Assembly: GCA_030835825.1 (NCBI GenBank)
Contig: JAURRA010000015.1
Location: 1-64,000, forward strand
DNA: 64,000 nt
Source: Flavobacteriaceae bacterium
GTDB lineage: Bacteria > Bacteroidota > Bacteroidia > Flavobacteriales > Flavobacteriaceae
Direction: 5' to 3'
A model generated the notes under the pieces. The model saw only the letters and a list, made by a program, of their open reading frames with translations, had not been told where the DNA came from and did no database searches. How positions within the stretch are numbered: the stretch's first letter is position 1; each line of letters opens with the position of its first letter. Made by a program: the position numbers and the translations under genes. Positions 24,854 to 63,681 of the stretch are shown here, piece after piece.

Positions 24854-25408
24854 TTATTCAGGAATCCATTTGATCTCTTCGACCTCAAGTGTATGGTGCA
24901 ACAGTCGGGCTAGGGTAAAAAGATAATCTGATAAGCGATTGAGAAATTTAATGGCAATATGAGGGACTGGTTCCGTTTCACCCAAAGCCGATACCATTCT
25001 TTCTGCTCTTCTACAAACGGTTCTGGCTATGTGACACTGCGAAATGTTTGGGTGACCGCCTGGAAGGATAAAATGGGTCATTGGGTTTAGAGTTTCATTG
25101 CACAGATCAATACGAATTTCTAAGTCAGTGACGCTTTTTTCTTTCAAATAAGGTAAGTTCTTTTCAAATGCCTGATGTTCGTCCATTTCAGAGGCCAACA
25201 TGGAACCAAGCGTGAATAAATCGTTTTGAATGTGCAATAAGATTGGTGCTTCAATACTTTCGGAACACAAATTCAAAAGTAGCCCAATATGAGCGTTAAG
25301 TTCATCAAGTGTGCCATAGGCGTCAACTCTAAGGTGGTGTTTGGGTACGCGTTTACCACCGTAAAGTCCAGTCTCTCCTTTGTCACCGGTTTTAGTGTAA
25401 ATTTTCAT
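24854..25408 (-). CDS. Cob(I)yrinic acid a,c-diamide adenosyltransferase (PduO type)
   Basis: 184 residues. PduO-type signature: the N-terminal KIYTKTGDKGETGLYGGKRV (ATP-binding), DAYGTLDELNAHIGLL and the RTVCRRAERMV motif near residue 130. It transfers the adenosyl group from ATP to Co(I)-corrinoid, making adenosylcobalamin. This matches two other AdoCbl-linked genes in the window, meaB and the CarH-like regulator. The 210 bp gap toward the DUF2795 gene holds no recognised feature beyond AT-rich DNA. Confidence 0.92.
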   Translation of the reverse strand: MKIYTKTGDKGETGLYGGKRVPKHHLRVDAYGTLDELNAHIGLLLNLCSESIEAPILLHIQNDLFTLGSMLASEMDEHQAFEKNLPYLKEKSVTDLEIRIDLCNETLNPMTHFILPGGHPNISQCHIARTVCRRAERMVSALGETEPVPHIAIKFLNRLSDYLFTLARLLHHTLEVEEIKWIPE

Positions 25409-59002: not shown

Positions 59003-59698
59003 CTACCTCTTGTTGACTAGTTTTTGATGAAAGAAATCGGTCATCGCTAAGTTGCCTAATATCAGTGTGAAGGCATAGACGGTATCTTCCACAGGAATGG
59101 TTCCAAGTCGAAGTCCGATGTTTTCGAAATTATTATACCACACCACAGGATCTTCAATGCCCGACCCAGTTAGGATGCCATTAATAATAAAAAAGGGTAT
59201 CAGCATAAATATAAAGGTCAGATAATAGTGTCGGAGAAGGTCATTTCTTTTCCAAACAATTAAGCTCAGCAGAGTAATGCCATAGACAAAGTTGATTACT
59301 GTATACCATCGATCGCGATATATTATACTAGAAATTAACAAAACGATAAGAATAATTCCGCTGAGAACATTGGTGAATTTAACGGGTAGCCTTTTGCTTC
59401 TGTGGAAGTATAAAATGGCGTGATGCATGAAAACACAAGCGTAAGGTATACAGATAAAGAACATCCATTCCTCAAGAGGAAGTTCGAGAAAGCTGTAGCC
59501 GCTTAAATAGTTGCTATCAAAACCCCAAAACCCACTAACAGTAAATATGTGGTCCCAAGGGATAAAAATCAACATATTGACCAATAGGCTCAGACCTAAT
59601 GCTGGCCACATCTTATAGAATTTAAGTTTGGGGTGAAAGCTAAAGATTAGTGGAACTGATATTGCTCCTAAATTGAGCAGTAGGTATAAATACTGCAT
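59003..59698 (-). CDS. crtY: Lycopene cyclase (fused CrtYc-CrtYd type)
   Basis: 231 residues with about seven membrane helices in two similar halves. Typical family pieces are FWGFDSNYLSGYSFLELPLEEWMFF (in part), with the PLEEWMFF signature, and PVEDTVYAF in the second half. It cyclises lycopene to beta-carotene. Last gene of the carotenoid operon; 4 bp after crtZ. Confidence 0.92.
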   Translation of the reverse strand: MQYLYLLLNLGAISVPLIFSFHPKLKFYKMWPALGLSLLVNMLIFIPWDHIFTVSGFWGFDSNYLSGYSFLELPLEEWMFFICIPYACVFMHHAILYFHRSKRLPVKFTNVLSGIILIVLLISSIIYRDRWYTVINFVYGITLLSLIVWKRNDLLRHYYLTFIFMLIPFFIINGILTGSGIEDPVVWYNNFENIGLRLGTIPVEDTVYAFTLILGNLAMTDFFHQKLVNKR

Positions 59699-59702
59699 CT
59701 AT

Positions 59703-60152
59703 TTATTTTTTAAAATATTTGAATGGCACGATCAGCATGCCAAAGTTTTCGCCCTGATTTTTACCAATGTGTTTGTGATGAATTTTATGGGCTCTTCTTA
59801 TGCCTTTTGCGTAAATGTTATTGGCCTTTTTAAAAATCTTGAATCGCTGGTGGATGAAAACATCATGCACCATGAAATAGGCTAAACCGTAACAGAAGAT
59901 ACCTACTCCAATCGGCAGAGCAAACCAAATATTATATTCGCTCCACAACACAATACATCCCATACTTACTACTGCGTAAAAAATAAAAAACAAGTCGTTT
60001 CGTTCAAACCAACTATCATGGTCTTTTTTATGGTGATCGGCATGAATATGCCATAAAAAACCGTGCATGACATATTTATGGGTAAACCAGGCCATAAATT
60101 CCATCGTAAAAAATGTAGCTAAGAATATGCCGATCCAAAAGACTGCTTGCAT
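59703..60152 (-). CDS. crtZ: Beta-carotene hydroxylase
   Basis: 149 residues, membrane di-iron hydroxylase. The histidine clusters are HKYVMHG, HADHHKKDHD, HDVFIHQRF and HKIHHKH. It adds 3-hydroxyls to the beta rings, giving zeaxanthin. 13 bp after crtB. No ketolase (crtW) gene is present, so astaxanthin-type ketocarotenoids are not expected from this operon. Confidence 0.95.
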   Translation of the reverse strand: MQAVFWIGIFLATFFTMEFMAWFTHKYVMHGFLWHIHADHHKKDHDSWFERNDLFFIFYAVVSMGCIVLWSEYNIWFALPIGVGIFCYGLAYFMVHDVFIHQRFKIFKKANNIYAKGIRRAHKIHHKHIGKNQGENFGMLIVPFKYFKK

Positions 60153-60165
60153 AGGGGGTGTAGGT

Positions 60166-61005
60166 TTAAATAAGATTCAGTTGATACTTGACATAGCTCC
60201 TTGTCAGGAGTATTATTTTTTTGTGATTAGACACTCTGATACGGGCATTTTTAATCTCCATAGCAGGGGTTTTTTTGAGCTTTTGCAGTAATTTGGAATA
60301 ATAACGATAGGCCATAAACACTCCAAATCGAGCTTCCATAGGGAGCTGCCGTATGCCCGACAGGCCTATAGCGAAATCACTTTCAATATCCTTGATAATA
60401 GCTGCTTTCGACTCTTCATCCAAACGATTTAAGTCGGTTCCAGGAAAATATGTTCTGTTCAACCCTTCAAAATCAGCTTTTAAGTCTCTTAAAAAATTGA
60501 CTTTTTGAAAGGCAGATCCCAATGACATAGCAGAATCCTTAAGTGCATCAAATTGAGCTTGATCACCACTGACAAAAACCTTTAAGCACATCAATCCTAC
60601 AACGTCGGCCGATCCGTAAATATAATTTTGATATTCTTCTACAGTGAGATATTTTGACTTGGTTAAATCAAGTCGCATACTGTGCATGAAGGCTTCGACA
60701 AATTTCCTGTCAATTTTACACTTATGGTAGGTGTGTTGAAATGCGTTCAAAATAGGATTGACACTGATGCCTTCGTCCAGAGCTTCGTACAGGCTAATTT
60801 CGAATCGATTGAGCAAGGAAACTTTATCAAAATCGTGAAATGAATCTACTATTTCGTCGGCTAAACGCACAAAGCCGTAAATATTATATATATCCTGCCT
60901 TATTGAATTGGCTAACATTTTTGTTGCCATTCCAAAGGAGGTGCTGTAAGTGGTGGTTACCATTTGATTACAGCGGTATGATACGTCGTCAAATACTTGT
61001 TTCAT
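60166..61005 (-). CDS. crtB: Phytoene synthase
   Basis: 279 residues from the ATG at 61005 (a TTG two codons upstream is less likely). The two Asp-rich motifs of the squalene/phytoene synthase family are present: VRLADEIVDSFHDF and FLRDLKADFEGLNRTYFP. It condenses two geranylgeranyl diphosphates to phytoene. Between crtI and crtZ, the standard flavobacterial order. Confidence 0.95.
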   Translation of the reverse strand: MKQVFDDVSYRCNQMVTTTYSTSFGMATKMLANSIRQDIYNIYGFVRLADEIVDSFHDFDKVSLLNRFEISLYEALDEGISVNPILNAFQHTYHKCKIDRKFVEAFMHSMRLDLTKSKYLTVEEYQNYIYGSADVVGLMCLKVFVSGDQAQFDALKDSAMSLGSAFQKVNFLRDLKADFEGLNRTYFPGTDLNRLDEESKAAIIKDIESDFAIGLSGIRQLPMEARFGVFMAYRYYSKLLQKLKKTPAMEIKNARIRVSNHKKIILLTRSYVKYQLNLI

Positions 61006-61052
61006 AGTCAAAACGAGTAAGTATTTTCAAGGTAGGTGGGGTCTACGATCGT

Positions 61053-62513
61053 TTAGGATTTATTGATTAGGTCTGCCACTAACTTCCCAGAAATTAAGGA
61101 GGGAGGTACGCCAGGGCCCGGAACACTGAGTTGACCTGTAAAAAATAAACTTTTCACTTTCTTACTTTGCAGCTTTGGTCTCAAAAAAGCGGTTTGAAGC
61201 AAAGTATTGGCCATACCGTAGGCGTTTCCTTTGTAGGAGTTGTAATCTTTGACAAAATCATTAACACAGAACGATTCTGTAAATATAATGCTATTTTTCA
61301 CATTCTGTTGTGTGAGCATCTCAAATCGGGTAAGGATTTTGTCTAAAAATTTGTCCCGAATGGCTTGTGTGTCTTCTATACCAGGGGCTATAGGAATCAA
61401 AAATATGCCGGCCTCTTTTCCTTTAGGCGCTGCATTGTCATCTGTTATGCTTGGAAAACTGGCATAGAACAAAGGATCCTCTGGCCATTTGGCATCATCG
61501 TAGATAGCTTCGGCATGCTTTTCAAAATCCACATCAAAAAATAGGGTATGATGATCAACATTATTTAACTTCTTATCAAAGCCAACATAAAATAGAAGTG
61601 ACGATGGAGCAAATGTCTTTCTCTCCCAATAGGCTTCGGAATATTGGCGAAATGATTCTGGCAAAAGGGTTTCGCTGTGGTGATAATCTGCGCCACTTAA
61701 AACAACTTCAGCTTCAAGCCTTTGACCATTGGCAACTACGCCTGCGGCTTTGCCCTGCTCAACAATGATTTGCTCGACGTTCATAGATGTTTGGATGTGC
61801 ACCCCTAGTTCCTTTGCTAACGAGGCCATGCCCTTAACAACTTCATACATACCTTTTTTCGGATGAAAAGTCCCAATACCAAAATCTGCATAGTTCATAA
61901 AAGAATAGAAACCTGGTGTCTTAGAGGCTTTTGCTCCCAAAAAAAGAACCGGAAATTCTAAAATCAATGCTAGTCTTTCATTGTTAAAGGCCTTGCGAAC
62001 ATCTCTTTGAATGGTACTGAAAAATTGACCCACTCTTACGGCTGTTTTTGGCGTAACTAATTCAAGCGGAGAAAGCCCTGGGCGATAGACCAAATCTTTG
62101 ATGGCGATATCATAATTCTTCCGCGCCTTGTCGATAAATTTTATCAAAGTTTTGGAGCTTCCTGGTTCTTCAGCTTCAAAAGCATCACAAATTTTATCCA
62201 AAGTATCGCCAATAGTAATTCTGTCAGCCTCTCCAAAATATACACTGTAGGCGGGACTCAGTTTTTCTAGGCTGTAATAGTCGTCAGGTAATTTGCCAAA
62301 GTCAGCAAAAAATCGTTCAAAAACATCTGGCATCCAATACCAAGTCGGGCCTATGTCAAAAGTAAAGCCGTCCTTTTTAAGTTGTCTTGCACGGCCTCCA
62401 ATTTGATCGTTTTTTTCTAAAATTGTTACTTGATGTCCGGACTTAGCGAGGTATGATGCCGCCGCCAGAGCCGAAAATCCTGAACCGATAATAATGATTT
62501 GTTTTTGTGACAT
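61053..62513 (-). CDS. crtI: Phytoene desaturase (lycopene-forming)
   Basis: 486 residues. FAD-binding N-terminus GSGFSALAAASYLAKSGHQV (in part), then KNDQIGGRARQLKKDGFTFDIGPTWYWMPD (in part), and the C-terminal GQLSVPGPGVPPSLISGKLVA (in part), all as in CrtI. It makes the four desaturations of phytoene to lycopene. It is 5 bp after the regulator gene, so it is cotranscribed with it. Confidence 0.95.
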   Translation of the reverse strand: MSQKQIIIIGSGFSALAAASYLAKSGHQVTILEKNDQIGGRARQLKKDGFTFDIGPTWYWMPDVFERFFADFGKLPDDYYSLEKLSPAYSVYFGEADRITIGDTLDKICDAFEAEEPGSSKTLIKFIDKARKNYDIAIKDLVYRPGLSPLELVTPKTAVRVGQFFSTIQRDVRKAFNNERLALILEFPVLFLGAKASKTPGFYSFMNYADFGIGTFHPKKGMYEVVKGMASLAKELGVHIQTSMNVEQIIVEQGKAAGVVANGQRLEAEVVLSGADYHHSETLLPESFRQYSEAYWERKTFAPSSLLFYVGFDKKLNNVDHHTLFFDVDFEKHAEAIYDDAKWPEDPLFYASFPSITDDNAAPKGKEAGIFLIPIAPGIEDTQAIRDKFLDKILTRFEMLTQQNVKNSIIFTESFCVNDFVKDYNSYKGNAYGMANTLLQTAFLRPKLQSKKVKSLFFTGQLSVPGPGVPPSLISGKLVADLINKS

Positions 62514-62518
62514 AGATA

Positions 62519-63415
62519 TTAAATGATTTGAACTACCTGCTTTAAACTGTTAAATATTTTGATTTTATGGTGCAAATTATAGTCCCTCATCAATTGGGTT
62601 CGTGACCCACAGGCCCACCATTCAGAGTAATTGTCGTTTAGCAATAGATCCTCTACTTCCTCGATATAATTTTTCATTTCTCCAGAATGTGGTCGCACTG
62701 TCATAGATGAAATGAAAACCAAATCCTTATGAACGGCTTTTAAATGCACCAAGCTTGATAATGGCATATTTTCTCCTAAATAAATACAATGACAGCCTTT
62801 AAGCTTTAATTCATAATATAGGTAGGAAAGTCCAATATCGTGAATTTCTCCTATAGGAAGAAAAAGTACATAGGTTCTTTTTGATGATGCCTGAACAGTT
62901 GATGCCTGTTCGATATGATAAAAAATCTTACGTTTGATAAACGCAGAAACAAAATGCTCGTGTGCCGGAGATATACTTTTTGTGAGCCACAGTTGACCTA
63001 CCTCAGCCAGAAAAGGGGCATAGACTTCAAGAAAAATCGATTTGAAGTCCTTGGTCTCCGAAAGCAGAATGAAGCACTCCTCTAACAAGGCTTCATCAAA
63101 ATTTAACATCGCTACCTTCAATCTGTAGCGCGCACTTGTGTTTGTGTCTTCATAATGTTTAAGCGTAAGAACGGCATGAGCCATTTCGGCATCTTTCATT
63201 GAGGCAATTTTAGAAATTTTTGCGCCGCGGTTATAGAGTGAAGTAATGCTTAATAACTTTTGCAGATTGGACAAACTATAAGATCTAATATTAGTGTCAC
63301 TGCGGTCGGGATGAAGTAAATTATACCTACTTTCCCATGCTCTTATGGTATGCGCTTTAATGCCGCTAATGTTTTCCAGATCTTTAATGCTAAAATGCAT
63401 TTTAACATTGTCCAT
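62519..63415 (-). CDS. MerR-family, B12-binding regulator (CarH-like)
   Basis: 298 residues from the ATG at 63415 (upstream in-frame TTG at 63439 is less likely). MerR DNA-binding domain at 1-75 (FSIKDLENISGIKAHTIRAW in part), then a four-helix B12-cap domain with the Wx9EH motif (W143, E153, H154) and a Rossmann B12-binding domain with ExHxxG (E190, H192, G195), whose His is the lower ligand. This matches CarH, which represses carotenoid genes in the dark with AdoCbl. Residue 144 is Leu where T. thermophilus CarH has the light-state His. First gene of the crt operon. Confidence 0.9.
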   Translation of the reverse strand: MDNVKMHFSIKDLENISGIKAHTIRAWESRYNLLHPDRSDTNIRSYSLSNLQKLLSITSLYNRGAKISKIASMKDAEMAHAVLTLKHYEDTNTSARYRLKVAMLNFDEALLEECFILLSETKDFKSIFLEVYAPFLAEVGQLWLTKSISPAHEHFVSAFIKRKIFYHIEQASTVQASSKRTYVLFLPIGEIHDIGLSYLYYELKLKGCHCIYLGENMPLSSLVHLKAVHKDLVFISSMTVRPHSGEMKNYIEEVEDLLLNDNYSEWWACGSRTQLMRDYNLHHKIKIFNSLKQVVQII

Positions 63416-63436
63416 CGTTTGGGCATTTTTGTTAAA

Positions 63437-63444
63437 CAAAAGTA
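63437..63444 (-). promoter_or_regulatory. Putative -7 box of the carotenoid operon
   Basis: Reads TACTTTTG on the minus strand, matching TAnnTTTG, 21 bp upstream of the regulator ATG. No clear TTG lies at -33. If the regulator binds its own operon, its operator should overlap this box; I could not identify an obvious repeat. Confidence 0.4.
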
Positions 63445-63480
63445 ATTAAAAACATTGGGGGATAAAAATGAAACTAAATG

Positions 63481-63565
63481 TGCGCACGAGAAGACTCGAA
63501 CTTCCACGACCTAAGCGGTCATTAGGCCCTCAACCTAACGCGTCTACCAATTCCGCCACGTGCGC
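63481..63565 (-). tRNA. tRNA-Leu (anticodon GAG)
   Basis: 85 nt, class II tRNA with a long variable arm. The acceptor stem GCGCACG pairs with CGTGCGC, discriminator A at 63481. The anticodon loop TTGAGGG between TTAGG and CCTAA gives GAG, reading CUC/CUU. The CCA end is not encoded. Confidence 0.93.
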
Positions 63566-63608
63566 TTTAAGGGGGTGTGAATGATTTGGAAAAATCAAAT
63601 TAAAAAAG

Positions 63609-63681
63609 TGACCTGGCTGGGGCTCGAACCCAGGACCCATACATTAAAAGTGTATTGCTCTACCAGCTGAGCTACCAGGTC
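63609..63681 (-). tRNA. tRNA-Lys (anticodon TTT)
   Basis: 73 nt. Acceptor GACCTGG pairs with CCAGGTC; the anticodon stem ATACA/TGTAT holds loop CTTTTAA, anticodon TTT. D-arm GCTC...GAGC and T-loop GGTTCGAGCCC are normal. CCA is not encoded. 43 bp upstream of tRNA-Leu on the same strand, probably one transcript. Confidence 0.95.

Follow-up and report, generated by a model that had tools for sequence, protein, structure and literature searches.

The need for bis-His ligation of the cobalt in CarH switching is disputed. For CarH of Thermus thermophilus (TtCarH), Poddar et al. reported that the H132A variant stayed largely tetrameric in light, its photoproduct being hydroxylated Co(III), and cited an earlier report of disassembly of this variant, contrary to their own result (excerpted text of PMC10442372). 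Arg, Gln and Tyr occupied the place of His132 in CtMerR, SasPcob and AbDPcob, respectively; all three proteins were reported to bind AdoCbl and to respond to green light, and CtMerR passed from a tetramer to a monomer in light, with hydroxocobalamin (PMC11796333). CtMerR as described there shows that a relative lacking the histidine can be a light switch. By analogy with TtCarH H132A, a residue unable to ligate cobalt may weaken the switch (PMC10442372). Variation at the His132 place is thus already in print. The upper-ligand histidine after the tryptophan was described for TtCarH and for "many" myxobacterial CarH proteins (PMC9304148), but does not serve to define CarH in the literature consulted; Wx9EH is the capping motif given in PMC8156234 and PMC9304148. 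A Chryseobacterium with light-induced carotenoids was reported to lack car and lit genes (excerpted text of PMC7064467), so light control in Bacteroidota need not mean CarH. Our literature search found neither binding, light or expression data on Bacteroidota CarH nor a description of a near-total absence of the histidine in these proteins.

The window analyzed here was a stretch of 64,000 nucleotides from a Flavobacteriaceae genome of 1.62 Mb that was 95% complete and held a single carH copy. The plus strand of positions 62519-63415 was full of stops, and an intact carH frame was found on the minus strand, encoding a CarH-like regulator of 298 aa with a MerR domain (residues ~8-75) and a cobalamin-binding domain (CBD, residues ~90-298) composed of a four-helix bundle and a Rossmann part. 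The longest mechanical reading frame, 62519-63439, began with a TTG that fell within a -7 promoter box, TACTTTTG (63437..63444, minus strand), of the TAnnTTTG type, which we take to be the Bacteroidota consensus for this element. Among 62 family promoters picked for containing TAnnTTTG, the distance of the box from a common coding anchor was 53 nt in 55, the window included. Because the TTG was located inside the box at this conserved spacing, ATG 63415 was the better start; an earlier note on this DNA had used the same start, and its residue numbering holds.

Pfam matches to MerR_1 (PF13411, E 5e-13), PF00376 and B12-binding_2 were obtained, the MerR-type winged helix being at the N-terminus, and the best solved relative was TtCarH (phmmer against PDB chains, E 4e-14). 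The AF2 model had a mean pLDDT of 67.7 and was poor beyond residue 238. Its CBD matched that of TtCarH with a Z of 17.7 (181 residues, 2.5 A) and that of CtMerR with a Z of 15.8 (194 residues, 3.1 A), further corrinoid domains being matched at Z 11-13; the input alignment was shallow and consisted of the window protein and four Thermus rows, which may have steered the fold.

The earlier note had reported Leu144 at the position of the TtCarH histidine, together with W143, E153, H154 and H192 as retained cobalamin motifs. By phmmer and MAFFT alignment, W143, L144, E153, H154 and H192 corresponded to W131, H132, E141, H142 and H177 of TtCarH, which bore out both observations; the flanking motif was conserved, and the column of Leu144 itself varied. 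The Ado-stacking Trp and the adjacent Leu were encoded at 62984..62989, E153-H154 at 62954..62959 (completing W143-x9-E153-H154) and the ExHxxG motif, E190-G195, with the lower-axial-ligand candidate H192 at 62831..62848, all on the minus strand. Of the classic B12 motif, the ExHx2G-x41-SxV/T segment was present as E190-x-H192-x2-G195, exactly 41 residues and S237-M-T239. In place of the GG pair expected 22-27 residues further, G270-S271 was found 30 residues after T239, as counted by eye, and the protein was therefore filed as CarH-like and not as a strict CarH member; within the family set, 95% conservation was found for the first Gly, G270. The retained W143 set the protein apart from CarA, a B12-independent paralogue in which the Trp of Wx9EH is lost, and its end at residue 298 with the CBD set it apart from photocobilins, which carry a C-terminal bilin-binding domain. 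All four elements of the signature that Yu et al. defined for light-responsive CBDs (GxxW, EH, GxxH, GxxxP; PMC11796333) were present, as GQLW, EH, GEIH and GENMP, the last one at 62762..62776 (minus strand). Leu144 cannot give bis-His ligation. It is no argument against light sensing, since CtMerR, with Arg at this place, was reported to switch in light.

The residue at the His132 column was then compared among relatives. In a first alignment of 124 order-level rows (window included, truncated copies left out, one locus present twice as L051/L134, the partial L062 included) the column held Gln in 89 rows, Leu in 20, Gly in 8, Arg and Ile in 2 each, Ser, Thr and Met in 1 each and His in none. 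In 184 distinct rows, which joined order-level with class, phylum and reference rows and were drawn from part of the search matches, the counts were Gln 106, Leu 28, Gly 9, Arg 7, Ile 6, Met 6, Lys 4, His 3 and others 15. This set included ~350-aa CBD proteins that matched over the B12 part alone (L194, L195, L197, L198) and excluded 14 truncated paralogues (L120-L133), the relics L075/L185, the partials L062/L196, the poorly aligned L183/L193, the window duplicate L201, the repeated loci L073/L134 and identical sequences. The three His rows were two Thermus proteins and L182, so that the histidine was absent from 177 of 178 distinct Bacteroidota rows, Gln being the commonest residue. The earlier note had implied that the missing histidine was an oddity of this protein; for the most part it proved to be a property shared across the clade, and the note's interpretation is supported in part. 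In the 162 rows that retained every one of G, W, E, H, the lower His and GxxxP, Gln was found in 99, Leu in 23 and His in 3. The complete light signature occurred in 45 of the 184 rows, among them the window, and the other 139 mostly missed the Gly of GxxH; the strict signature is therefore not general in the CarH-like group. Seven further Thermus loci outside the 184 were all of the Trp-His type. Outside Bacteroidota the scan of genome contigs yielded Thermus alone, and beyond these two the column was represented by four plasmid records with Arg, Glu, Glu and Gln. The window protein belongs to a CarH-like group that is widespread in Bacteroidota and almost always lacks the bis-His ligand.

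On a single quick tree (LG+G4, SH-aLRT) built without the His132 column, with 63 of 181 inner branches open and long branches flagged, the Leu label required 8 changes. A 20-row clade with a support of 100 had Leu in 17, Ile in 2 and Met in 1; it kept E141, H142 and H177 in 20/20 rows and the Trp in 17, with Phe or Tyr in the other 3. Leu at this column is therefore a stable state in some lineages. The smallest well-supported set holding the window comprised 79 rows, in which the window was the sole Leu against 78 Gln. The idea that Leu144 makes the window protein unique was rejected, Leu being present in 28 of the 184 rows.

The suggestion of the earlier note that another residue might serve as ligand found no counterpart in the alignment of Bacteroidota CarH-like proteins: the conserved histidine elsewhere, which would have told against its interpretation, was not found, and no CBD column held a conserved replacement. 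Among the 17 Leu rows of the 20-row clade, no column other than H142 and H177 reached 30% His. His-rich CBD columns common to the window were H154 and H192, plus H152, mainly in the family. We regard it as highly improbable that H152 or H154 becomes the upper ligand in light. The H152 column, adjoining E153, holds His in 55 of the 60 Gln-type family rows; across the 178 Bacteroidota rows, however, His stands there in 99, and in the Leu clade, where it is not conserved, in less than 30%. H154, which caps the cofactor as the His of Wx9EH, is also present in TtCarH, and that protein uses His132 instead.

Several other variants were recorded among the relatives. The lower-ligand His was replaced by Asn or Ser in L095, L098 and L152, with the Trp and EH kept, and L095 and L098 adjoined crtI and crtB. 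In L046 and L137, which ranked 5 and 2 of 72 by carH/crtI distance ratio, Wx9EH was changed to Wx9ER; they are perhaps B12-independent forms. The 14 loci L120-L133, all of family code f11, encoded CarH paralogues of ~220-257 aa with a MerR domain and a four-helix bundle; a full Rossmann B12 domain was lacking, as judged by length, and the EH of Wx9EH was found in 0/14. One of them, L133, had 198 aa and ran into a contig end. The genomes G180, G234 and G243 carried both a truncated paralogue and a full-length carH. Two carH-like genes, one adjoining crt genes and one not, were present in G057 (C150, C220), which is listed as 8% contaminated, and in G245 (C3, C4).

The window carH was the first gene of a minus-strand cluster in the order carH, crtI, crtB, crtZ-like and crtY-type cyclase. 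The putative phytoene desaturase gene crtI (61053..62513) began 5 bp after carH and was named from an amine-oxidase family match; the phytoene synthase gene crtB (60166..61011) matched SQS_PSY and the lycopene cyclase gene (59003..59698) matched Lycopene_cyc. Upstream of the carH promoter, tRNA-Leu (gag; 63480..63565) followed directly and then tRNA-Lys (ttt; 63608..63681), both on the minus strand, and beyond them a divergent gene that we take to be shikimate-kinase-like (aroK). The carotene hydroxylase gene (59703..60152) had no Pfam match and was assigned tentatively from its position and the flavobacterial cluster described in the excerpted text of PMC11855829. Other arrangements were observed in G004 (L231), where two tRNA-like sequences as in the window were followed directly by crtI, and in G059 (L234, a single contig), where an aroK-like gene was followed by crtIBZY; carH was missing in both.

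The gene crtI was found in the carH locus in 59/59 of L001-L059, and crtI or crtB lay within the fetched stretch in 16/20 of L060-L079, 28/40 of L080-L119, 18/36 of L146-L181, 3/19 of L182-L200 and 1/14 of the truncated paralogues. In 120 family genomes, searched at E 1e-10 for carH and E 1e-100 for crtI, carH was detected in 96 (one of them, G092, a relic), all 96 with crtI; 8 genomes had crtI without carH and 16 had neither.

A PduO-type cob(I)alamin adenosyltransferase was encoded in the window at 24854..25408 on the minus strand (PF01923 match at 24902-25402, E 8.5e-59), and methylmalonyl-CoA-mutase-type matches were found in the genome; the organism therefore presumably makes AdoCbl. A second mutase-subunit match (G000:C24:14863-15813) contained one internal TGA, indicating a frame break or an assembly error. 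The earlier note had considered AdoCbl binding likely, and with the contact motifs kept, the adenosyltransferase in the window and the mutase matches in the genome, binding by the window protein still appears likely. In the family sample, PF01923 was present in 92/96 carH genomes and 17/24 others (Fisher p 0.001, kinship ignored). The four carH genomes without it (G008, G048, G062, G064) count against a link with AdoCbl; G008 and G064 were near-complete.

It could also be supposed, as the earlier note did among its alternatives, that the protein is a B12-status regulator, which represses when AdoCbl is plentiful and for which light is of minor importance, as the photoproduct state would be unlocked. 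The absence of the upper His fits this proposal, as does TtCarH H132A, mostly tetrameric in light (PMC10442372). We consider it improbable in view of the presence of crtI in 96/96 carH genomes of the family sample, of the response of the His-less CtMerR to light (PMC11796333) and of the lack of any cobalamin riboswitch in the window at Rfam gathering scores.

With moderate confidence, slightly on the positive side, we propose that the window protein is a photorepressor of the CarH type which depends on AdoCbl, controls its own carotenoid operon and does so with no bis-His lock. In the dark, AdoCbl would be held by H192 from below and by W143, E153 and H154 from above, giving an oligomer, which on the operator-like site TTTGTTTAAC over the -7 box would block transcription of carH-crtIBZY. 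Light would cleave the Co-C bond, the adenosyl group would be lost and aquo- or hydroxocobalamin would stay on H192. The loss of the adenosyl group would break the oligomer and derepress the operon, with Leu144 standing where the family usually has Gln. The four signature elements, the CtMerR precedent, the co-occurrence of carH with crtI and with the adenosyltransferase, and the operator-like site speak for this proposal. Against it stand the mostly tetrameric state of TtCarH H132A in light, the half-kept GG, changes in the recognition helix (I26A, K29S), the lack of a second site at crtI and the four genomes without PF01923.

The site TTTGTTTAAC was conserved in the carH promoter and was also present at crtI in 40/75 family loci. 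In the window it was represented by a near-palindrome, TTTGTTTAACAAA (63428..63440, minus strand), which overlapped the -7 box and is a putative operator. Within the 62 family promoters, TAnnTTTG was followed by TTTAA with 82-97% conservation per base, and part of the conservation of the operator-like site is that of the promoter itself. The pattern TAnnTTTGTTTA was located upstream of carH in 56/67 family loci and upstream of crtI in 0/9 carH-less loci; it occurred in 1/99 loci of five other groups, among them a set of 9 copies from this family that are of the Gly type. The carH-crtI junction held a second promoter, TTTTTGTTTAA...TATATTTGTTAAACAA, in 40/75 family loci (for example, L010 at ~2412-2480). 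Two TTTGTTWAAC-type sites overlapped both boxes of this second crt promoter, with a distance of 21 bp between them in 34 of the 35 cases where it could be measured. The pattern by which rows were picked fixed the -7 half of the consensus, but neither its upstream half nor the spacing. These paired sites are a probable CarH operator; two DNA turns between sites over both promoter boxes would fit a CarH-like repressor.

The window itself had one such site, that at 63428-63440, and none at crtI, and with one mismatch allowed operator-like sites were no commoner in the window than in shuffles. As a regulon mark in the window genome, TAnnTTTGTTTAAY was rejected, with 3 matches against 7 for the reversed pattern; the two matches outside the carH-crt locus fell near genes that we take to be of transsulfuration type and of amidase and MCE types. 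A plain 11-bp direct-repeat arrangement upstream of carH was rejected as well, the mean best match being 11.9 at lag 11 and 12.1 at lag 10.

The genus comparison covered four genomes, the window's included. In G092, only an N-terminal carH fragment without a B12 domain remained between the same tRNA-Leu and crtI, and its recognition helix was changed from RAWESRY to RICEKRH. In G709, a 5' remnant of only ~16 codons of carH-like DNA was recognized, which escaped a search at the protein level. Alignment scores to the window carH, promoter region included, were 103.5 and 36.5, respectively, and 0/500 mononucleotide shuffles reached either. TTTGTTTAA was kept in G092; G709 kept TACTTTTG and had lost the remainder of the site. 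The crt genes were intact in both, with crtI proteins 90% (G092) and 88% (G709) identical to that of the window. The fourth genome, G708 (55% complete), gave no carH match and a distant crtI-like match. From these loci it is concluded that the genus is losing carH, and that this decay, not the missing His, is the lineage-specific oddity. Loss of carH as a consequence of AdoCbl loss was rejected for the genus, mutase matches being present in 4/4 genomes and the adenosyltransferase in G092.

The window carH was also divergent. Its carH/crtI distance ratio of 2.70 ranked first of 72 loci (median 1.69), its end-branch ratio of 4.05 ranked second of 72 (top 4.09), and its end branch on the tree was 0.99 against a median of 0.34. 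The protein was changed at 7/60 columns conserved at 95%, Q144L included, and its recognition helix departed from the family consensus at the two positions already named. Leu144 may thus be a sign of relaxed constraint, although the gene itself is intact. Window carH is perhaps under relaxed selection and may already be non-functional; the decay in congeners, the distance ratios and the conserved-site changes also speak for the photorepressor proposal in this form.

The same observations bear on a decaying regulator, in which the window carH would be on its way to loss as in its congeners, Leu144 would be one neutral change, and the crt operon would be constitutive or becoming so. This would suit a rhodopsin-bearing cell that always needs beta-carotene, and a rhodopsin gene was found in 4/4 genus genomes. 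carH was missing or decayed in 6/12 crtI genomes below 2 Mb, G004 among them, against 3/92 larger ones (p 4e-5, G092 counted as decayed), and in 5/24 rhodopsin-bearing against 4/80 other crtI genomes (p 0.03); both tests ignore kinship and incomplete assemblies, and small genomes here are often incomplete. Within larger genomes alone, no rhodopsin effect on carH loss was found. The relic and the remnant beside closely similar crtI genes and the highest distance ratio of 72 agree with decay. However, the reading frame is open from end to end, the gene retains W, EH, H192, GxxxP, the spacing to SxT and the operator-like site, a fast branch may also reflect changed function, 19/24 rhodopsin-bearing crtI genomes keep carH, and conserved-site changes were as many in L078 (7) and more in L061 (12) and the partial L062 (31). 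We hold decay to be a rather unlikely account.

A broader generalization, on which we are evenly divided, is that the Bacteroidota CarH switch is almost never bis-His, that adenosyl loss alone is the general mechanism, that the upper His is a trait of Thermus-like and some myxobacterial proteins, and that Gln/Leu-type pockets and, in the window's family, TTTGTTWAAC operators are used instead. Bacteroidota CarH-like proteins, with Gln, Leu, Gly, Ile, Arg or Lys at the His132 place, are natural tests of the disputed need for bis-His ligation, and the clade-wide absence of the histidine is itself worth testing, the predicted operator being a ready reporter. The loss of carH with crt genes kept may show when light control of carotenoids stops paying.

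Compared with known systems, the window protein resembles T. thermophilus CarH (LitR; PDB 5C8D, 5C8F, 8C31-8C76) in its MerR domain and CBD, in the W, EH and lower His, in adjoining crt genes and in the modelled CBD fold (Z 17). It differs by Leu for His132, so that a bis-His light state through that residue is not available, by an identity of 23-25% and by the GG motif, of which just half is kept; the window carH heads the crt operon, whereas that of T. thermophilus is divergent to crtB. CtMerR, from Chloracidobacterium thermophilum (PDB 8JBS, 8JBT), likewise has no His and a full light signature, matches the modelled CBD (Z 15.8) and offers in its behavior the best precedent (PMC11796333), although the identity is 16% over the aligned CBD and Arg stands where the window has Leu. 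CarH and CarA of Myxococcales are repressors of carotenoid genes, as the window protein is predicted to be, but CarA is without the Trp of Wx9EH, which the window protein keeps (excerpted text of PMC9304148). The photocobilins SasPcob and AbDPcob (PDB 8J2W-8J2Y) share the CBD signature, and the Gln of SasPcob at the His132 place is the usual residue of the window's family; they lack a MerR domain and carry a bilin domain behind the CBD, whereas the window protein begins with a MerR domain and ends with the CBD.
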